Assembly: GCF_030296915.1 (NCBI RefSeq)
Contig: NZ_AP028031.1
Coordinates: 139,001-203,000 of the forward strand
DNA from: Anaerostipes hadrus ATCC 29173 = JCM 17467
GTDB lineage: Bacteria; Bacillota; Clostridia; Lachnospirales; Lachnospiraceae
Reading direction: 5' to 3'
Length of the DNA: 64,000 nt
Below, in pieces: positions 1 to 62,395 of this stretch (within the stretch, counting starts at the first letter, position 1; every line of letters begins with the position of its first letter). Under the pieces are notes generated by a model. The model was not told the origin of the DNA and ran no database searches. It worked only from the letters and a program-made list of their open reading frames with translations. The translations under genes were made by a program, and so were the position numbers.

Positions 1-103
1 CGTAGAAATTAAGATAAGATAATTTTCAAACATCCCAACAAATCGGTGTTGTAGATTTTATCTAAACTTCTGTTAATAAGTACAAGAATCATCAACTAAT
101 ACA

Positions 104-170
104 GTTTAACATACACATTGTGTAGTGATTTGAACAGCGTTCTGACTCATACATGCAACACTACCTACAA
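104..170 (+). repeat. Collapsed type-2 hairpin unit (no hairpin)
   Basis: This carries the two conserved outer modules of the type-2 hairpin units at 38933-39247 and 61776-61952. The inner module starts GTTTAACATACAC and continues with TGTGTAGTGATTTGAA. The outer module is CTGACTCATACATGCAACAC followed by TACCTACAA. In the complete units a 54-bp stem lies between the modules; here they are joined directly near position 140. The unit ends 8 bases before the MATE stop codon. Positions 1-103 hold no feature I recognise. Confidence 0.7.
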
Positions 171-177
171 TCATAAT

Positions 178-1509
178 TTAGTAGTGATAAACTTTCCTTC
201 TACTCCGTAAAAAATAAATCGTAACAATTAAAGTCAACATCTCCGCTACAACAACTCCCATCCAGATTCCATTCAATCCAAGCACAAGTGGCAGCAGCAT
301 AATACACCCAATCTGGAACAACAAAGTTCGAAGGAATGCAATCATTCCAGAAACAACCCCATTATTCAAAGCTGTAAAGAACGAAGAAGCCCAGATATTA
401 AATCCATTGATCAAAAACACAAATGCATACAACCGGAATCCATGTAACGTCATAGCAAACAGATCAGCATCATATCCAACAAAGATATTGATCAGCGGAT
501 GGGAAAAAAACTCAGAGATCAAAGTCAGACAAACCCCAGTTACAGCAATTAAAGACAAACTCTTCTTCAACATATTCTTCAATTCCGAATGATTTCCAGC
601 CCCATAATTATAACTGGTGATCGGAGCGCTTCCCATAGAATATCCAAGATAGATTGCAGCAAAGATAAAGTTCGCATACATGATCACACCATAAGCAGCA
701 ACACCATCTGCACCAGCAAGGCGCATTAACTGTGTATTATAAAGCATATTTACAACGGAAGAAGAAGCATTTGTCATAAATTCCGAAGAACCATTTAAAC
801 AGGTCTTTAATAAAATATCTTTTCTCCAGACAGGTTTCACAAGACGAAGACGGCTGCTGTTATTTTTCCGCGCAAAATAGATCAACGGTACAAGCCCGCC
901 AACATACTCACCCATGGCAGTTGCAACCGCAGCCCCGGCAACACCATAATGCATAACTCCGATAAAGAGATAGTCAAACACAATATTGATCACGCCAGAA
1001 ATCAAAGACATACGAAGACTATAAGAAGGTTTCTCTGCTGTAATAAAGAAGTTATAAAAGATCGTCTGCATCATAAACATTGGCTGTGATACAAACATAA
1101 TACGTCCATAAGTAGACGCATATTCAAGCAGCTGTCCACGCGCCCCAAGTGCCATACAGATCTGCCTTATAAAAATAAATCCAAAGACAGACAGGATCGT
1201 AGCTCCGATCAAAGCAGTAAAGATCAGCATAGAAAAATATTCATTTGCTTTTTCTTTTTTGCCCTCACCAAGCGTTTTTGCAACGATCGCACTTCCACCA
1301 GAACCGATCATAAATCCGATCGCTCCAACACCCATCGCAACAGGAAGGATAAGATTGACCGCAGCAAATGCTGTTTTTCCTGCAAAATTGGAAATAAACA
1401 ATCCATCAATAATACTGTACATCGAAGTACAGATCATCATAATGATCGATGGAAATACAAAACGGATCAGACGTTTGTAAGTGAAATGATCTGATAATTG
1501 AATCTTCAT
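178..1509 (-). CDS. MATE family multidrug efflux transporter
   Basis: This is a polytopic inner-membrane antiporter of the MATE family, expected to export drugs or metabolites against an Na+ or H+ gradient. At 443 residues it has the usual family length. The N-terminus (FPSIIMMICTSMYSIIDGLF) and the GSGGSAIVAKTLGEGK segment near residue 90 are typical of the clostridial MATE/NorM group, and hydrophobic helices continue throughout. It starts 6 bases after the MarR stop codon, with an AAAGGAG ribosome site inside the end of that gene, so the two form one minus-strand operon. The substrate is unknown. A second, clearly distinct MATE gene lies at 43878-45233. Confidence 0.93.
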   Translation of the reverse strand: MKIQLSDHFTYKRLIRFVFPSIIMMICTSMYSIIDGLFISNFAGKTAFAAVNLILPVAMGVGAIGFMIGSGGSAIVAKTLGEGKKEKANEYFSMLIFTALIGATILSVFGFIFIRQICMALGARGQLLEYASTYGRIMFVSQPMFMMQTIFYNFFITAEKPSYSLRMSLISGVINIVFDYLFIGVMHYGVAGAAVATAMGEYVGGLVPLIYFARKNNSSRLRLVKPVWRKDILLKTCLNGSSEFMTNASSSVVNMLYNTQLMRLAGADGVAAYGVIMYANFIFAAIYLGYSMGSAPITSYNYGAGNHSELKNMLKKSLSLIAVTGVCLTLISEFFSHPLINIFVGYDADLFAMTLHGFRLYAFVFLINGFNIWASSFFTALNNGVVSGMIAFLRTLLFQIGCIMLLPLVLGLNGIWMGVVVAEMLTLIVTIYFLRSRRKVYHY

Positions 1510-12877: not shown

Positions 12878-13831
12878 ATGACAGAAAAGCTAAAAAATAA
12901 AATCAATGATGAACAATTAAAGATCAGAGCGATTAGTGATGAAAAAATAACAGTAAAACTAACAAACAATTATGCATTTCAAAAAATATTTAAAAATACT
13001 AAAATTGTAAAAGGATTTCCAATGGCATTGCTGGATTTAAAAGAATATGAAATCAAAAAAATTGAAATTACAGATCCATTTACACTGGGAGAAAATGATG
13101 AAGAAAAAGAAGGAATTCTGGACATCAAATTGATTTTAAATCAAAACAGAAAGATTAACATTGAAATGCAAAACACCTATCAAGATGATTGGACAGAGAG
13201 AAGCCTTTTTTATAATTGTCGAATGTTTACAGATGGATTAAAAAAAGGACATCCTTATGGAGAAATTCCACCATGTATTCATGTTGGTATTTTAAATTTT
13301 AATCAAATGATAAGTCCGAATTATTACCATAAATTTAGTCTGATGGATGAAAAAACCAAAGAGATATATAGTAGAAAATTTCAATTTCATATGATAGAAT
13401 TGAAGAAACTAAAGTACGTAAAAGAGAAACAAAAGAAAAAACCATTATATCGATGGGCAAAGTTGATAGCTGCACAGACATGGGAAGAATTGGAACAGGA
13501 ATCAAAAGGTAATAAGTATATGGAAAGGGCGCTGGAAGAGATGATAAAGATCAGTCAGGATGAGAGGGAAAGATATTTGTATCTGAGAGAAGAGATGGCA
13601 GAGAGTGACAGAGCAAGTCAGATACAAAGTGCACAGAGGATTGGACGTAAGGAAGGAGAAATATTAAAATTAATTTCATTAGTTCAAAAGAAAATTTTGA
13701 AAAATAAAACTTTGCCACAGATTGCAGAAGAATCAGAAGAAGATACGATAGTAATTGAACCTATTTATACATTAATAAAAGAGAATCCAGAGGCAGAGAA
13801 AGAAGAAATCTACAAAATGTTGAATTTGTAA
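12878..13831 (+). CDS. Rpn family PD-(D/E)XK nuclease / transposase-like protein
   Basis: A 317-residue protein of the Rpn/PDDEXK_2 group (often annotated as transposase family protein), whose tested members promote RecA-independent recombination. The nuclease motif is ILDIKLILNQNRKINIEMQN at about residues 86-105, giving D-x(n)-E-x-Q. The N-terminal TNNYAFQKIFKN segment and DDWTERSLFYNCRMF are family hallmarks. The C-terminal part is a charged helix (RKEGEILKLISLVQKKILKN). A paralogue at 42052-43002 is alike along its whole length. The gene stands alone after AAGGAG. Confidence 0.88.
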   Translation: MTEKLKNKINDEQLKIRAISDEKITVKLTNNYAFQKIFKNTKIVKGFPMALLDLKEYEIKKIEITDPFTLGENDEEKEGILDIKLILNQNRKINIEMQNTYQDDWTERSLFYNCRMFTDGLKKGHPYGEIPPCIHVGILNFNQMISPNYYHKFSLMDEKTKEIYSRKFQFHMIELKKLKYVKEKQKKKPLYRWAKLIAAQTWEELEQESKGNKYMERALEEMIKISQDERERYLYLREEMAESDRASQIQSAQRIGRKEGEILKLISLVQKKILKNKTLPQIAEESEEDTIVIEPIYTLIKENPEAEKEEIYKMLNL

Positions 13832-28749: not shown

Positions 28750-28929
28750 TTGAAAAATAAAAAAAATAATAGATATTTAATTATAGGAATTGGTTATCTT
28801 ATTTTATTTTTTATTGTTCTAACTCCAGACATTAATAATGCAGTAGGAAGAGGAATACAAGCATTATTATTTTGTGTTTTAGGATATAGATGTGAGGAAA
28901 ATATTAGAAGGTTTATAAAAAATAGATAA
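28750..28929 (+). CDS. Small membrane protein
   Basis: A 59-residue frame from TTG 28750 with a weak GTAGGTG site. Two hydrophobic helices (YLIIGIGYLILFFIVLTP and ALLFCVLGYRC) are followed by a basic tail (ENIRRFIKNR). It sits just downstream of the tRNA gene among AT-rich small ORFs. No family recognised. Confidence 0.5.
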   Translation: MKNKKNNRYLIIGIGYLILFFIVLTPDINNAVGRGIQALLFCVLGYRCEENIRRFIKNR

Positions 28930-29007
28930 TAAAAGGATTTTAATCAAGCAGAGAATTTATTTGAGATATTTTCTGCTTGATAACATACGATTGGATATGA
29001 AAAAATC

Positions 29008-29652
29008 ATGATAAAAGAAAACAAGATAAAAAAATATGTAGTTGTAATTATATGTTTATTAGGTATGTTGATATTAAGTGGAAAGACAGAAAATGTATTT
29101 GCGAATGATAAAAAATCAAAAGATATGGAAAATAGCTTATTATCTTTCTATATAAAAGATGTATCAAACGTTGAAAGCATTAGATATATTCCATTGGATA
29201 AAAAAATCATAGGAAATAAAAGAATAACGGATAAATCAAATGTTGTAGATATTGGATTTGGAGAATATTATATTAAAGTTAAAGATGAAAAAAAGGAACT
29301 ACAAGAACCAAGTTATTCATCTTGGTATGAGGCACCGAAAGGTGGCATGCAATTTCGTGAAAAATTATCAATAGAATACCAAGTAAATAAAGATTATAAT
29401 AATAAAAATCTGAGGATTTTAAAAAAAGTTGTTGAAGAAAATATTCATCCAAAAAATAAAGTACTTATTTCTGCCTCACAATATGTCAATGTGAAAAATG
29501 GATATAAGAAAAATATCAAAGCATGTATTTTTTATCAAAGCTATAGTATTCAACTTTATGAAAAAGACTTATTTTTTGATGATAAAATTACAACAGGAAA
29601 AGTGAAAATACCAATAGGGATTGTCTTTATTGTTAGTAAGGATATGAAATAA
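29008..29652 (+). CDS. Secreted hypothetical protein
   Basis: A 214-residue protein with a basic start and a signal-peptide-like helix (KYVVVIICLLGMLILSG, about residues 10-26), with likely cleavage near VFAND. The mature part is charged and beta-rich, with SYSSWYEAPKGGMQFREKLS in the middle. No lipobox, enzyme motif or known domain is seen. The gene is markedly AT-rich and lies in the small-ORF stretch downstream of tRNA-Gly, possibly acquired DNA. It ends at a good terminator. Confidence 0.6.
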   Translation: MIKENKIKKYVVVIICLLGMLILSGKTENVFANDKKSKDMENSLLSFYIKDVSNVESIRYIPLDKKIIGNKRITDKSNVVDIGFGEYYIKVKDEKKELQEPSYSSWYEAPKGGMQFREKLSIEYQVNKDYNNKNLRILKKVVEENIHPKNKVLISASQYVNVKNGYKKNIKACIFYQSYSIQLYEKDLFFDDKITTGKVKIPIGIVFIVSKDMK

Positions 29653-29657
29653 TGATA

Positions 29658-29703
29658 TAAAAATATAAGGGGTAGAAGATAGAATTCTGCCCTTTATATT
29701 TTT
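29658..29703 (+). terminator. Bidirectional-type terminator
   Basis: AAAAATATAAGGGGTAGAA pairs with TTCTGCCCTTTATATTTTT (one mismatch), ending in a T-run. Confidence 0.8.
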
Positions 29704-29820
29704 ATAGGCTCTCAGAATCATGAGCCTTCCGACTAAGATGCATTGGTCGGATGAATCTTGAAAAGTAAATATTATCCAGAACGGACATGAAAAGTAATAA
29801 AAGTAAAATAATAAGGAAGA

Positions 29821-29868
29821 AGGCATTCAGGCTTAGCATATAAATTCTAAGTTTGGATGCCTTTTTCC
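29821..29868 (+). terminator. Hairpin with T-run upstream of the broken response regulator
   Basis: GGCATTCAGGCTTAG pairs with CTAAGTTTGGATGCC and is followed by TTTTT. The remaining sequence between 29704 and 29991 shows no convincing gene; a 72-codon minus-strand frame there is crossed by this hairpin and is probably chance. Confidence 0.7.
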
Positions 29869-29991
29869 GGTGATAGATACATAAAAATGTCAAAGTTCTG
29901 TGAACAATTCCATTTCTCACAAATTCATAACATTTTCCATCTATAATAAATCAAAAATCAGAGAAGTATGCAAAAAAGGAGGAATTCCACA

Positions 29992-30542
29992 ATGCGGTTA
30001 TTACTTGCAGAAGATGAAAGATCATTATCAAGAGCGTTAGTTACGAGGAAGTATTAAAAACCATCAGAGATAAGAAAAATCTGATTCCAATTCTGATGCT
30101 GACAGCGAAAGCAGAGATTGACGATAAAGTAGAAGGACTGGATCTTGGAGCGAATGATTATCTCACAAAACCATTTGCGGCAAAAGAATTGTTGGCAAGA
30201 ATCCGTACCATGATCAGAACGCAGACAACACAAACAGAATCAATTTTGTATGTCGGAAATATCACATTAAACAGAGCGACTTTTGAACTGACATCACCAA
30301 CAGGAAGTTTTCGTCTTGCGAATAAGGAATTTCAGATGATGGAGATGTTTTTATGTAATCAGGGCCACAGTATCACGCACAAACGTCTGTTGGAAAAAAT
30401 CTGGGGAGATGAAAAACAGGTACAGACGAACGTTGTATGGATGTACATTTCTTATCTTAGAAAGAAATTAGAAGCACTCCACGCAAATCTTCAGATTACA
30501 GAGGCAAGTCACGCAGAATATATTTTGGAGGTGGGAGGATGA
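29992..30542 (+). pseudogene. OmpR-family response regulator, internal deletion and frameshift
   Basis: AAAGGAGG and ATG 29992 begin a normal receiver domain (MRLLLAEDERSLSRAL) that stops after 21 codons. In another frame the protein resumes as YEEVLKTIRDKK and runs through MLTAKAEIDDKVEGLDLGAN (conserved switch residue and Lys in KPF) into an intact winged-helix DNA-binding domain, with stop TGA at 30542. About 45 residues are missing, including the phosphorylated aspartate. A restart at the internal ATG 30096 would still lack the receiver site. The gene is dead as a phospho-switch. Confidence 0.85.
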
Positions 30543-38300: not shown

Positions 38301-38536
38301 TTATCACAAATGGTAATATCGATATTATTGTAAACTCTCCAGTCGGAAAAGACAGCGTGAACGATGATAGTTACCTAAGAAAAGGTGCGATCAAAGCGAA
38401 GATTCCATATTATACAACGATCGCAGCAGCCAAAGCAGCAGCTGAAGGAATCGCTTATGTAAAAGCACATCAGGATCAGAATGAAGAAGTGAATTCATTA
38501 CAGGGATTACATGCACAGATTTCTGATAAGTTGTAA
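35303..38536 (+). CDS. carB: Carbamoyl phosphate synthase large subunit
   Basis: A 1077-residue ATP-grasp enzyme making carbamoyl phosphate for pyrimidine and arginine synthesis. The two homologous halves begin VLIIGSGPIIIGQACEFDYS (residue 10) and IMILGGGPNRIGQGIEFDYC (about 555). Both ATP-grasp cores have RPAYTMGGAGGG and RPSYVLGGRGME loops, and INPRTSRSS and ANPRASRTV metal sites. The C-terminal allosteric MGS domain (about 935-1060) is present. AAAGGAGG precedes ATG. The small glutaminase subunit carA is not adjacent, which is unusual though not unknown. Confidence 0.97.
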   Translation: MPKRTDINKVLIIGSGPIIIGQACEFDYSGTQACKALRKLGYEIVLVNSNPATIMTDPETADETYIEPLNAERLEEIIAKERPDALLPNLGGQSGLNLCEELYKKGILDKYNVKVIGVQVDSIERGEDRIEFKKTMDELGIEMARSEVAYSVEDGLKIADKLGYPVVLRPAYTMGGAGGGLVYNKEELKTVMARGLQASLVGQVLVEESILGWEELELEVVRDAEGNMITVCFIENIDPLGVHTGDSFCSAPMLTISEECQQRLQEQAYKIVDSVQVIGGTNVQFAHDPVTDRIIVIEINPRTSRSSALASKATGFPIALVSAMLAAGLTLKDIPCGKYGTLDKYVPDGDYVVIKFARWAFEKFKGVEDKLGTQMRAVGEVMSIGKTYKEAFQKAIRSLETGRYGLGHANNFDTLTKEELLKKLVSPSSERHFIMYEALRKGATVDEIFELTKVKTYFIEQMKELVEEEEKLLACKGNMPSDEMLTSAKKDGFSDKYLSQLLEIPEEDIRNKRISIGVEEAWEGVHVSGTPDSAYYYSTYNAEDKNPVSTDKQKIMILGGGPNRIGQGIEFDYCCVHASQALKKMGFETIIVNCNPETVSTDYDTSDKLYFEPLTVEDVLSIYNKEKPLGVIAQFGGQTPLNIAAELEKNGVKILGTSPSVIDLAEDRDLFREMMDKLEIPMPESGMATTVEEALEIAGKIGYPVMVRPSYVLGGRGMEVVYDDESMAGYMKAAVGVTPDRPILIDRFLNHAMECEADAISDGTHAFVPAVMEHIELAGVHSGDSACILPSVHISEENLETIKEYTRKIAEEMHVKGLMNMQYAIEDDKVYVLEANPRASRTVPLVSKVCNVRMVPLATQIITSELTGKPSPVPELKEQAIPYYGVKEAAFPFNMFQEVDPVLGPEMRSTGEVLGLSKSYGEAFYKAQEGVGAKLPLGGTVLISVNRKDKEEVVEVAKAFADDGFKILATENTCKLIKEAGIEAEKVNKLSEGRPNILDLITNGNIDIIVNSPVGKDSVNDDSYLRKGAIKAKIPYYTTIAAAKAAAEGIAYVKAHQDQNEEVNSLQGLHAQISDKL

Positions 38537-38558
38537 TTTGTGTGTTGGCCAACTGTAG

Positions 38559-38862
38559 TCTTTCAGTATATGATAAAAAATAAATAAACGATTGGAAGAG
38601 CAGCTAGAGAATTTTGCTCACGTTTTTTGCAGATCGCTGATCCGCCGGCTTTCCTTGTGCAACTCGCCTTCAAGGGTGTTTAAATCAGAACTCTTTGAGG
38701 CTCAGACAGCACACCAAGCCGGCTGCGAATCCGCAAAAAACGTGGCAAAATTCTAATGCTACTCTTCCGATCGTTTATTTATTTTTTATCATATACCTGA
38801 AGGCTAAAGTGTGGACAATTACAAGATTGGAAAACTTAGGTGGGGTGTATGTTAAACGTTAT
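38559..38862 (-). repeat. Type-1 long-hairpin unit (A)
   Basis: Arms 38567-38600 and 38762-38795 pair over 34 bases, the only difference being a U-G wobble. Inside, TTTTTTGC tracts pair, and a conserved apical core reads (minus strand) TTCGCAGCCGGC ... GGCGGATCAGCG. Outside the arm, CTTCAGGTAT and then ACGTTTAACATACACCC (38843-38862, minus strand) match unit C at 62004-62263. It starts about 22 bases after the carB stop. It is divergent from unit B. Confidence 0.8.
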
Positions 38863-38932
38863 TGGTTTTCGTAAGTTTCTTTTATCTTCCGTCAACGAAT
38901 TCAAAACTTATCAGTCAATACCGTTTAACATA

Positions 38933-39247
38933 CACACTGTGTAGTGATTTGAATAGCGTTCCGTTGTATGAGTCAGAAAGAAAATAAGAAAAAATATTTA
39001 GAAGAATACAGGGTGACAACATGAGCACTTTTTGAATGCGTTTTTTACAAATTCGCAGCGCCCTGTGGTTGATTGTCTGACCGTAGCTGCGGGCATTTTG
39101 GCTCGCAGCCAGGAAGTTATCAAAGGAACAGGCGCGGATCAGCGATTTGTAAAAAACGCTTTCAAAAATGCGGAGTGTCACCCTGTATTTTTCTAAATAT
39201 TTTTTCTTATTTTCTTTCTGACTCATACATGCAACACTATCCACAAA
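38933..39247 (+). repeat. Type-2 long-hairpin unit (B)
   Basis: The inner module GTTTAACATACACACTGTGT continues with AGTGATTTGAATAGCGTT. Arms 38965-39018 and 39176-39229 pair over 54 bases with one G-U wobble (39004). The apical part has TTTTTTAC tracts, ATTCGCAGCGCC and GGCGCGGATCAGCG. The outer module CTGACTCATACATGCAACAC touches the stop codon of the minus-strand ATPase gene. The same modules occur in units at 104-170 and 61776-61952. Confidence 0.82.
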
Positions 39248-40945
39248 TCAGAGATTTCGATAACGATTCATCGCTGCCATAACTTCCTGCTTCCGAGGCA
39301 TCGCCAGATTACTTTTCACATACTTACTATCCAAGAGTGCAGAAAGTCCTTTTGTTTCAATCATCTGCATTAATTCATCTGCAACTGCACAAAGATCTTT
39401 CTTCCCATCCATCAAATGAAGTTTCGCATACAACAAAGCATAACCAAGAGCTGTTGTCTGTTCAGTATCAGCAATCTGCTCCACATATCTTAGATCAACT
39501 GTATCCTTGTTAATCGAAAAAGCATCTTTTCCAAGTGTTTTCATCTTGATCTTGCGTTCTTTCTTCAAATGATTTCCAGCGTTGAAACAACGGTCAAAAC
39601 AAGGATCTGGATGTTTCTTTTCAGGCAGTGAAACCATAGGGAAATCTTTTGCTGCGTCTTTGGCGGCTGTAGTGATATCTTTTGGTATATACTGATCCAT
39701 CTGAATGATATGATCTGCCGGATGGAAATAAGATCCACAGCTTCCAGCAACGATGATCGAAGAAATATCATATCTTTCGTACAATTCACGAATCCGTTCG
39801 ATAAAAGGAGTGATCGGTTCCTGATCACGAAGAACTACACGCTGCATCAGTTCATCACGGATCATAAAGTTGGTGGCACTCGTATCCTCGTCAATTAAGA
39901 ATAAAGAAGAATCCGTTTCCATGGCTTCAACTACATTTGCAGCCTGTGAGGTGCTTCCACTGGCACCTTCTGTGTCAAAAGAAACCGTATTTTTCCCATT
40001 TGGCAGGTTATTAATGAACATAGAAATATCTGTATTTGTAATACTTCTTCCATCTTCTGCACGAATCTTCATGGCAGTTGGATCAGTAATGACAAATTCA
40101 CGACCATCCCCTTTGACATGATCGTAAACACCAAGTTCCAATGCTTTTAATAACGTCGATTTTCCATGATATCCACCACCAACGATCAGGGTGATTCCTT
40201 TCGGAATTCCCATACCCGTGATCATTCCTTGATGTGGAAGTTCAAAAGATACACGGTAAGTATCTGGTGACTGGAATTTCACACAGTTTCTTAAAGGTTT
40301 CTGTGAGATACCACTTTCTCTAGGCAAAACAGAGCCATCTGCAATAAATGCGACAAGTCCCATAGAAGACAGTTTTTTACGGATTGTATGTTGATCTTCG
40401 GATAAATAAATTACTGATTCCAACATTTTTTGATCAATATTTTTATAAAACAAAGAAGATGAAACACAATCTGGCAACAGTCCAAACAACATTTTATCCA
40501 ATTCTCTCGCATTTACAGTTCGTCCATTTGCAGGGAAACCAGCTTCAAAATGAACAGAGATGTCACCGTTGGAAGGATTGATCGTACATGCAGTTCGTTC
40601 TAGTACCTGTTGTCCACATTTACTGACAGAAAATAAACCGCTTTTTCCAGAACCTTTGGCACGAAAAGAGATCTTAGATAAAGTTTGATAAAATAATCGT
40701 GTCAAATGATCACAGAGTGCAACCTGTTTATATTTTGTATCATAAAAAGAAGCAGGAAATCCAGCTGATCTTCCTTTCACATGGATACTTAATTTTGATG
40801 GAGATGCAAAAGGATCGCCTTGTACATGATCAATGGAAAGAAAATAAGTTCCAAAATCATAAGTACCTTGCGTATTTTTATATGCAGGATATCCTTTACG
40901 GTCAATATTTTTTAATAGTGATTTTAAATTCGATGACGATTTCAT
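39248..40945 (-). CDS. COG3044-type ABC-class ATPase
   Basis: A 565-residue predicted ATPase of the ABC class (PF09818-like). The N-terminal domain (about 1-230) is family-specific. Walker A is GGGYHGKSTLLKALE near residue 256, a signature-like SGSTSQAANVVEAME follows, and Walker B is SSLFLIDEDTSATNFMIRD near residue 345. The bacterial role is not established; relatives bind RNA in other organisms. There is no membrane part, so it is cytoplasmic. It is a single-gene unit whose stop codon abuts hairpin unit B. Confidence 0.87.
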   Translation of the reverse strand: MKSSSNLKSLLKNIDRKGYPAYKNTQGTYDFGTYFLSIDHVQGDPFASPSKLSIHVKGRSAGFPASFYDTKYKQVALCDHLTRLFYQTLSKISFRAKGSGKSGLFSVSKCGQQVLERTACTINPSNGDISVHFEAGFPANGRTVNARELDKMLFGLLPDCVSSSLFYKNIDQKMLESVIYLSEDQHTIRKKLSSMGLVAFIADGSVLPRESGISQKPLRNCVKFQSPDTYRVSFELPHQGMITGMGIPKGITLIVGGGYHGKSTLLKALELGVYDHVKGDGREFVITDPTAMKIRAEDGRSITNTDISMFINNLPNGKNTVSFDTEGASGSTSQAANVVEAMETDSSLFLIDEDTSATNFMIRDELMQRVVLRDQEPITPFIERIRELYERYDISSIIVAGSCGSYFHPADHIIQMDQYIPKDITTAAKDAAKDFPMVSLPEKKHPDPCFDRCFNAGNHLKKERKIKMKTLGKDAFSINKDTVDLRYVEQIADTEQTTALGYALLYAKLHLMDGKKDLCAVADELMQMIETKGLSALLDSKYVKSNLAMPRKQEVMAAMNRYRNL

Positions 40946-42051: not shown

Positions 42052-43002
42052 ATGGGGAATAAAGACATTACAGATTTCAATGAAGCGCAATTAAGAAAGA
42101 GAGCAGCAAGTAAGGAAGAATTAAATATTTGTTTGACCAATAATTATGCATTTCAAAAGATATTTAAGAATGAAGAGATAGTAAAAGGATTTTTAATAGC
42201 ATTGTTGCATTTAAAGGAAACAGATATTGAAGAGTTGGAGGTTACGGATCCTTTTGTGGAAGGTGAAGTAAAAGAAGAAAAAGAGGGAATACTAGATGTC
42301 AAATTAATCTTAAATGGTGGCAAAAAGATTAATATCGAGATGCAAAATACGTATCAGGAAGATTGGGCAGAGAGAAGTTTATTTTATAATTGTCGGATGT
42401 TTACAGAGGGATTAAAAAAGGGAGAATCTTATTATGAATTACCTCCATGTATTCATGTAGGAATTCTTGATTTTAATTATTTAAAAAGTCCTGGATTTTA
42501 TCATAGAATTTTATTAAAAGATGATACAACAGGTGAATTGTATAGTAGTAAATTTCAATTTCATGTGATAGAATTAAGTAAAATAGCAACGACAAAAGGA
42601 AAAGCAAGAAAACAAGATCTTTATAAATGGGCTAAATTAATTTCAGCAAGTACTTGGGAAGAAATCAGAGAAGAATCTGAAGGAAATCATTACATGGAAA
42701 AGGTGAGGGATGAAATGATTAAGATGAGCCAAGATGAGAGTGAGAGATATCTTTATTTAAGGGAACAAATGGCAATCCGCGATAAAGCGAGTCAATTAAG
42801 AAGTGCAGAGAATATAGGAATAAGGAAAGGTGAACTTTTAAAATTAGTGACACTAGTACAGAGAAAAATTGAAAAAGGAGATACGGTAGATAAAATAGCA
42901 GATGATCTGTTAGAAGATCAAGAAATTATTGAGAAAATATATAATTTAATAAGAAAATATCCTGATAAAGATGAAAAAGAAATTTGTAATTTTTTGATAT
43001 AA
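42052..43002 (+). CDS. Rpn family PD-(D/E)XK nuclease / transposase-like protein (paralogue)
   Basis: A 316-residue homologue of the protein at 12878-13831, similar from LTNNYAFQKIFKN to the end. The nuclease motif is ILDVKLILNGGKKINIEMQN, followed by EDWAERSLFYNCRMFTEGLK. The variable tail (IRKGELLKLVTLVQRKIEKG) differs most, as usual in this family. It has its own promoter and AAGGAG site. Family members are multi-copy, single-gene loci, and the genes lack visible terminal inverted repeats. Confidence 0.88.
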   Translation: MGNKDITDFNEAQLRKRAASKEELNICLTNNYAFQKIFKNEEIVKGFLIALLHLKETDIEELEVTDPFVEGEVKEEKEGILDVKLILNGGKKINIEMQNTYQEDWAERSLFYNCRMFTEGLKKGESYYELPPCIHVGILDFNYLKSPGFYHRILLKDDTTGELYSSKFQFHVIELSKIATTKGKARKQDLYKWAKLISASTWEEIREESEGNHYMEKVRDEMIKMSQDESERYLYLREQMAIRDKASQLRSAENIGIRKGELLKLVTLVQRKIEKGDTVDKIADDLLEDQEIIEKIYNLIRKYPDKDEKEICNFLI

Positions 43003-61761: not shown

Positions 61762-61775
61762 TGTCTTTGACATTT

Positions 61776-61952
61776 TTGTAGGTAGTCTTGCATGTATGTG
61801 ACAGAAATAAAAGAAAAACAAATATTTAAAAGCATCAAGGTGGCAACTCCGCATTTTTGCCACCTTGATGCTTTTAAATATTTGTTTTTCTTTTATTTCT
61901 GTCACATACACATGAAGTCTATTCAAACCACTACACAGTGTGTATGTTTTAC
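61776..61952 (-). repeat. Type-2 long-hairpin unit (D)
   Basis: Arms 61793-61846 and 61857-61910 are perfect complements over 54 bases, with a 10-base loop. The inner module (minus strand) is AACATACACACTGTGTAGTG then GTTTGAATAGACTTC, and the outer module CATACATGCAAGACTAC then CTACAA. These match unit B and the collapsed copy at 104-170. The arms have the same length as in unit B, but many bases differ. The apical core is missing. Confidence 0.85.
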
Positions 61953-62003
61953 TGTATTAGCATTAATAATATCTGTCCACCTCTATAAAAATTAAAAAAC
62001 GAT

Positions 62004-62263
62004 AACGTTTAACATACACCCATCAGCTTGAATTTTATTAATTTTATACAAGAATGTCTTCAGGTATTCATAAAAAGATAAAGAAAGATAGCGGTACGAA
62101 ATGGTAGAATTCCATAGGATTTTTTGCAAAATCGCAGCCAACACGGGCACTGTTTGAACGTAGTGAGTTGTGCAGGAGTGTTGGCGGATCAGCGTTTTGC
62201 AAAAAATCCGTTAATGGAATTCGTTTTTCGTACCGCTATCTTTCTTTATCTTTTTATGAATAC
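62004..62263 (+). repeat. Type-1 long-hairpin unit (C)
   Basis: The inner module AACGTTTAACATACACCC and TCTTCAGGTAT match unit A. Arms 62064-62101 and 62226-62263 pair perfectly over 38 bases. The apical part has TTTTTTGCAAAATCGCAGCC near 62120 and GGCGGATCAGCGTTTTGCAA near 62183, the same core as in units A and B. It is divergent from unit D. Positions 62264-62395 hold only a ribosome site (AAAGGAGG) for the next gene. Confidence 0.83.
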
Positions 62264-62395
62264 TCAATATATTCCCATCATACAATTAAAAAATTTTACA
62301 AAAACTTATCATTCCCATGTACCTTTCCTTAATCTCCCAAGTGTATAGTTAAACTCAACAGAGAATGATTGACTATATCAAAGGAGGATCTTATT

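Follow-up and report, generated by a model that had tools for sequence, protein, structure and literature searches.

Paired long-hairpin elements with a conserved tip at gene ends in the genome of Anaerostipes hadrus

The DNA analysed here (the window) is a 64-kb stretch, positions 139001–203000 of a one-contig genome of 2.80 Mb. It holds two pairs of long-hairpin units, flanked by carB, a gene for an ABC_ATPase P-loop protein (PF09818) and xpt, as well as part of a third copy (Table 1). As the preliminary description had stated, two unlike hairpin units stand back to back next to carB; sequence and repeat analysis placed them at 38528–39253. Each unit of this pair starts at GTTTAACATACAC, as was also described, with sites at 38845–38857 on the minus strand and at 38923–38935 on the plus strand. 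The pairing recurs in the opposite order, B-type then A-type, at 61775–62285. The A-type unit is of subtype Aa in pair 1 and of a different subtype, Ad, in pair 2. The fold-back covers nearly the whole unit length, out to ends such as AAATTNTRATTTGTA. The third element is a collapsed copy starting before the window, with its left end 154 bp upstream (genome position 138847). The pair showed no recognisable coding content, in agreement with the earlier statement that no protein is encoded, and the 109-aa frame at 38915–39244 had no Pfam match.

Table 1. Hairpin units, spacers and tips of the three elements (positions within the window).
Feature	Position	Strand	Remarks
Unit A of pair 1 (type Aa), fold-back	38528..38851	-	outer end at carB stop; stem arms 38566-38617 / 38745-38796, 52 bp, 5 mismatches
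Tip core of pair-1 unit A	38621-38742	-	
Spacer S of pair 1	38852..38928	.	inverted ends GTTTAACATACAC; shorter than reference spacers (139 and 145 nt)
Unit B of pair 1 (type Bb), fold-back	38929..39253	+	stem arms 38965-39018 / 39176-39229, 54 bp, 1 mismatch; tip 39050-39147
Unit B of pair 2 (types Bb/Bf)	61775..61946	-	stem arms 61793-61846 / 61857-61910, 54 bp, 0 mismatches; tip deleted
Spacer of pair 2	61947..62015	.	inverted motifs 61940-61952 (minus, diverged) and 62007-62019 (plus)
Unit A of pair 2 (type Ad)	62016..62285	+	stem arms 62064-62101 / 62226-62263, 38 bp, 0 mismatches; tip 62129-62197
Third element, right part	1..178	+	spacer half 28-109; collapsed Bb unit 110-170, hairpin lost

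The genome holds more than 50 copies of this noncoding paired-hairpin element. The motif GTTTAACATACAC was found at 37 sites with up to one mismatch, compared to 2 sites for the reversed control, and BLAST of the genome with two element queries yielded 114 and 130 pieces at E ≤ 0.01, which shows that the likeness of the two loci is not a chance effect of AT-rich sequence. At least four of the 37 motif sites look stray (1357309, 2080507, 2130427, and 2495753). Annotation of the stretches, for which eight types of unit and two of spacer served as references, resulted in 56 groups. After insertion-split pieces were merged and two lone spacer fragments (804937 and 1108000) were left out, 50 elements were obtained. 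A subsequent search with a model of the tip added five more tip-bearing loci, so that the total is 55 element loci.

A full element consists of two fold-back units (~210–330 nt) around a spacer with inverted ends. By our own count, parts of two units are present in 31 of the 50 elements, the remainder being single units or remnants. The two units of an element are usually from different subtype sets (a, d, e vs. b, c, f), and subtypes from both sets are freely combined; subtypes g and h were met as single units only. The supposed defined polarity of the pair turned out to be a tendency only, since two elements (1008678 and 2464498) have the composition B-spacer-B. Folding energies of the eight reference units ranged from −92 to −170 kcal/mol. 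The outer ends read AAATTNTRATTTGTA or similar and are imperfect. AATT-like flanks occur at many, though not all, ends and are only suggestive of a 4-bp target duplication; intergenic DNA of the relatives is too diverged for a comparison of target duplications.

The stem of each unit carries a tip with a conserved structure. Tips of 89–123 nt were cut out by a pattern with 43 matches, one of which was judged coding. The 42 tips were reduced to 18 non-redundant sequences, and 17 of them were aligned (one was left out). With a hand-written tip structure, 98.0% of the cells were paired vs. 35–42% for slid versions. Changes on both sides were observed in 22 of 32 tip pairs, and double-change cells numbered 123, compared to 36.1 in shuffles. 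The stem sequence varies among subtypes with the pairing kept, and the letters between the stems are near-invariant: a T bulge and, on opposite sides, A vs. GGATCA-like, GG vs. AGGA, and TGTYTGA vs. GAGTT. The layout of the tip is stem - G[G/A] - short stem - TGTYTGA - GC..GC - GAGTT - short stem - AGGA - stem, often with a second loop (A / GRATNA). A covariance model built from 17 tips of several genera, unlike the alignment of tips from this genome alone, detected 49 tips in the genome at E ≤ 0.01. Tips were lost in the copies at 200793, 2071083, 1074592, and 139104; the tip core is inverted at 2461476, and the unit at 2605979 is chimeric. The lost and inverted tips point to hairpin events at the DNA level. 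Some tips contain GCGAAGC, an extraordinarily stable DNA mini-hairpin, and this is taken as no more than a hint. A description of the tip or of the family was not found in the open-licence literature searched.

The elements are concentrated at gene ends. Relative to ORFs that had been called mechanically, 24 of the 50 elements stood between convergent genes, 24 between tandem genes and none between divergent genes, with two loci left without assignment; longer stretches turned both of these into convergent ones. The five later loci, also placed by ORF calling, comprised four convergent and one divergent. Overall, 30 of the 55 loci were convergent, 24 tandem, and one divergent, in comparison with 5, 44, and 6, respectively, for the 55 gene pairs of the window. 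At locus 433659 the left ORF extends into the element, and at locus 1835561 the right ORF is ~600 nt off. Measured from the upstream gene's stop codon, the element edge lay at −18 to +14 nt in 23 of the 24 tandem loci and at 41 nt in the remaining one; the rest of the intergenic gap was mostly left between the element and the downstream gene. At all of the first 24 convergent loci at least one element edge was within 16 nt of a stop codon. An offset of −8 was found on 15 sides; here the element end, e.g., AAATTTTAA or AAATTGTGA, supplies the stop codon with its first nine letters.

Genomes of related organisms were searched with the motif and with one query composed of a spacer and a Bf unit together with the flanking gene. 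The exact 13-mer motif was absent from all 10 other genomes of the genus and had a single occurrence among 30 further relatives (in one genome). In all 10 genus relatives only the gene part of the second query was matched, from the element edge onward. The pair-1 element was also compared with 149 genomes of the family that each represent another genus; three of them had short matches (≤45.5 bits).

For ten convergent loci, the joined flanks were searched in seven genomes of the genus. Twenty orthologous stretches representing eight of the ten loci were obtained; the joined flanks of carB and of the 138847 locus had no match in these seven genomes. According to a strict rule, 14 of the 20 orthologous ends have a terminator-like hairpin no more than 110 nt away from the gene, including one doubtful case (L248), where the neighbouring gene differs and the hairpin is uncertain. 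By eye, several of the six rule-negative ends also carry such a hairpin. In the genome under study, a terminator-like hairpin outside the element was found at 7 of 48 loci. Comparison of these two fractions indicates that the element often stands at the position occupied by a terminator in the relatives. An exception is the 2461-kb locus, where several relatives show hardly any intergenic gap and no obvious terminator. At loci 1856441 and 212006 a terminator-like hairpin persists beyond the element. This suggests that the element inserted behind the stop codon and that the terminator was lost later, although it may also have been replaced in a single step. One allele from another strain was available, MT839396 (L054), corresponding to the 2464-kb copy. 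It has the same left unit, a different spacer and B subtype, and no empty site. No gain or loss at the strain level was seen.

The tip, in turn, extends beyond the species. A covariance model of the tips from the studied genome had matches in 5 of 249 other genomes of the family (E ≤ 0.01). At E ≤ 0.001, the multi-genus model of 17 tips had matches in 10 of 397 other genomes of the phylum. One of the ten belongs to the same family, the other nine are spread over five further families, and several of the matches are near the threshold or partial. Covariance searches over more than 40 genomes were run with stricter filters, by which weak matches are lost. With the tip written as a DNA pattern, 73 stretches were found in genome contigs; 37 loci were kept by eye and by title, and 36 were set aside as probably coding or chance. 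The kept loci are mainly Lachnospiraceae, Blautia, and Oribacterium records, with a few Patescibacteria contigs (e.g., L121, L156, and L157). Many of the kept loci scored zero or low on a strict anchored fold-back measure. Twelve loci were folded, and the tip stood on a long hairpin in most, L118 being an exception. Genome G041 has two hairpins with a common core and unrelated outer arms of 65–66 bp, and the outer arms of two copies in genome G049 are unlike each other yet paired within each copy. The diverged copies 1835561 and 711581 of the studied genome likewise have long near-perfect arms of their own. These cases indicate that the tip is conserved, whereas the arms change but stay complementary. 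Five giant hairpins from other Bacillota (L269, L270, L281, L288, and L283) share a second motif, GTTAAGAAA opposite TTTTAGC, at some distance below the tip. One more tip-bearing giant hairpin (L275) presumably lies close to the end of a 23S rRNA gene.

Changes in the arms were compared between copies of the same subtype at different divergence. At 0–3% divergence, 3 of 32 changed arm pairs were double changes. At 3–6% divergence, the share of double changes among changed pairs was 0.19 for Aa, 0.33 for Bb, 0.21 for Bc, and 0.27 for Ae; for Ad it was 0.60, from three sequence pairs. By our estimate, independent mutation would give double changes at about half the divergence, ~0.02–0.03. Since double changes are few at 0–3% and many at 3–6%, single changes seem to come first and to be later matched or lost. 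Both self-templated correction and selection for pairing fit the double changes, and later selection or recombination among the copies could give the same pattern.

The preliminary description had offered two divergently transcribed structured RNAs as one possibility, in which case each unit would be transcribed, with the tip as an RNA domain (sRNA or a special terminator), and spread by recombination. Covarying stems with near-invariant loops are typical of such RNA. In a helix under selection as RNA, G.U pairs are expected to be retained and A.C pairs to disappear. The arms of 59 near-complete units of the studied genome contained 5308 Watson-Crick, 121 G.T, 134 A.C, and 363 other pairs; this lack of G.T preference, in a comparison made like the others here without a control RNA, argues against an RNA role. 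Tips gave opposite indications, with G.T 15 vs. A.C 6 in the studied genome and 5 vs. 10 across genera. For hairpin loci identified mostly in other genomes (53 submitted, 51 measured), the counts were G.T 125 vs. A.C 92, and a lean to G.T remained (111 vs. 76) in the 46 loci of other genomes left after three loci of the studied genome and two duplicates (L165 = L096 and L178 = L091) were removed by hand. At gathering scores, Rfam recognised only one tRNA in the whole window, and no family covered a unit or a tip; pair 1 had seven matches at E ≤ 5, all far below the gathering scores, and in nine loci of other genomes no family overlapped a tip at E ≤ 1. Long-hairpin miRNA models were rejected, their matches being far under the gathering scores, and a Clostridiales-1 match in L164 was located away from the tip. 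Taken together, we regard structured RNAs as a disfavoured and rather improbable explanation, despite the G.T lean in other genomes.

A classical MITE of a DDE insertion sequence is also unlikely, though somewhat less so. Here the outer AAATTNTRATTTGTA-like ends or the inner spacer ends GTGTATGTTAAACG would be the terminal inverted repeats of a lost or unrecognised insertion sequence, and the hairpins would be passengers. The elements resemble MITEs in being noncoding and repeated, in the inverted ends, and in the burst in one species among those searched; the AATT-like flanks of many copies would also fit. They differ in that no parent insertion sequence was found: the motif sites that were read are element copies or stray matches, and none belonged to an insertion sequence with the inner ends. 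The arms change yet stay complementary, and the conserved part is the folded tip; a MITE leaves unexplained why the tip, rather than the ends, recurs in other genera. A third alternative is that the copies are bidirectional terminators domesticated by the host, not mobile today and kept for ending convergent transcription. Such a role would fit the location between convergent genes or behind stop codons, the rarity of ordinary terminators alongside, the long arms retained by the diverged copies 711581 and 1835561, and the purine-rich 5' arms of 58 of 59 units. The last feature is found in only 26 of the 51 measured hairpin loci, and the copy number in one species is left unexplained. The elements are like intrinsic terminators in standing behind genes, often where the relatives hold a terminator, and unlike them in their length of hundreds of bases, in lacking a T-run behind the outer stem, and in forming a family of many copies. 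We consider domestication without present mobility very unlikely.

No autonomous copy of the element was found. Seven matches to PF01797 (Y1) were present in the genome, with open frames of at most 171 aa, i.e., IS200-length or shorter. PF01797 was sought in 29 and then in 17 genomes (overlapping sets). Y1 proteins that are RAYT-like by length were detected in G041, G281, G334, G492, G511, G551, and Patescibacteria-titled genomes. A RAYT/Y1 helper was nevertheless rejected: genes of RAYT length are present in several genomes that carry the tip, but the studied genome has none, and no convincing tip was seen at 56 Y1 loci (30 + 26, with L187 and L188 being one locus counted twice). A loose tip pattern with one mismatch per half matched five and four Y1 loci in the two sets, which were judged by eye to be chance. 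IS110 was rejected as the helper, its three copies being later insertions inside Bb tips. The three IS110-family copies (673884–675549, 1148381–1150046, and 242157–244073, the last with protein NF033542) are inserted at the same place of the Bb tip, and so the giant hairpins serve as an IS110 target. An IS4-family copy (NF033592) at genome position ~28754–30354 is likewise a later insertion; it interrupts an Aa tip and is flanked, by eye, by the direct repeat CAATTGGGCTGC. Plasmid sequences had no match to the element, and viral contigs had no match to the motif. The tip pattern had three matches in viral contigs, which share one common flanking sequence, show no fold-back, and were discarded. 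Carriage by a phage was also dismissed, the sole match being MT839396, deposited as Bacteriophage sp. and read as a mislabelled chromosomal scaffold ending in the repeat.

We favour, with moderate confidence, a non-autonomous palindromic mobile DNA element of REPIN/BIME style, unusually large, which is moved in trans by an enzyme. The preliminary description had named a palindromic element mobilised in trans as its other possibility, and this is supported by the many copies, the absence of the motif and of the spacer-plus-Bf sequence from all 10 genus relatives, the lack of a recognised gene of its own, and the orthologous ends without the element. The basis is the copy family, its restriction to one species among the genomes searched, modularity, location at gene 3' ends, element-free ends in relatives, double changes in the arms, and the conserved tip. 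Against it stand the failure to find an autonomous copy or an enzyme, the lack of observed strain-level gain or loss, the imperfect ends with a target duplication that is only suggestive, the scarcity of double changes at 0–3% divergence, the G.T lean in other genomes, and the relatives with hardly any gap at the 2461-kb locus. Two fold-back units around a short spacer would spread as one unit. The element would be recognised and moved as folded DNA, either single-stranded or cruciform, probably through the tip and the end motifs, by an enzyme supplied in trans. The hairpin may be repaired or copied on its own template, which would keep the arms complementary. Copies would survive behind stop codons, where they would stand in for the intrinsic terminator and might stop transcription coming from either side. 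More tentatively, it is possible that the tip defines a class of folded-DNA elements, unnamed in the literature searched, which occurs in Bacillota and Patescibacteria; an enzyme would read the tip as DNA, and self-templated copying would renew the arms.

Of the known systems, integron attC sites act as folded DNA hairpins in which the stem sequence varies and the unpaired bases are conserved. The likeness to them in these three respects is a works-like analogy only, since the elements described here have no consistent box motifs at the unit ends and are far longer. Integron-like boxes in GTTTAAC were dropped as probably chance. The closest parallels are found in REP sequences. In the sections of PMC3116915 cited here, inverted REP doublets are the replicative unit, RAYT is predicted to move the doublets in trans, and compensatory changes in doublets are common. 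In the cited sections of PMC3733652, stop codons are provided by REP termini, REPs are counted according to the orientation of flanking ORFs, and dimers of unlike units are described, as are REP dimers inside long palindromes. In comparison with these descriptions, our elements are like REP dimers, BIMEs, and REPINs in being an inverted pair of palindromes with a spacer, intergenic and without a gene of their own, and also in the stop-codon-giving termini, dimers of unlike units, the presence of some dimers within longer palindromes, and compensatory changes (PMC3116915; PMC3733652). They are unlike the REPs of 20–40 bp described there in the size of the hairpin units (~210–330 nt) and in the multi-loop conserved tip. 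No GTAG/CGTC-tagged short REP was recognised when the sequences were read without a systematic tag search, and the unit ends differ. Since no RAYT was found in the studied genome or beside tips elsewhere, we do not claim membership in the REP/REPIN family, only a similar way of working.

If the mobile-palindrome reading is correct, giant palindromic mobile DNA forms populations in bacteria that are remote from the well-studied REP systems, and it takes over gene ends in place of terminators. The conserved tip, combined with freely changing arms, is a handle for finding the enzyme. The elements also represent a system for studying how long palindromes, which are normally unstable, stay nearly perfect in genomes.

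Two further observations were made. A fluoride riboswitch (RF01734, 48.4 bits) is located near one element copy (L009, 233–306). Within the window, the 300-nt stretches at 12962–13261 and 42136–42435 are 75% alike, and the ORFs that contain them (317 and 316 aa) may be paralogous genes.
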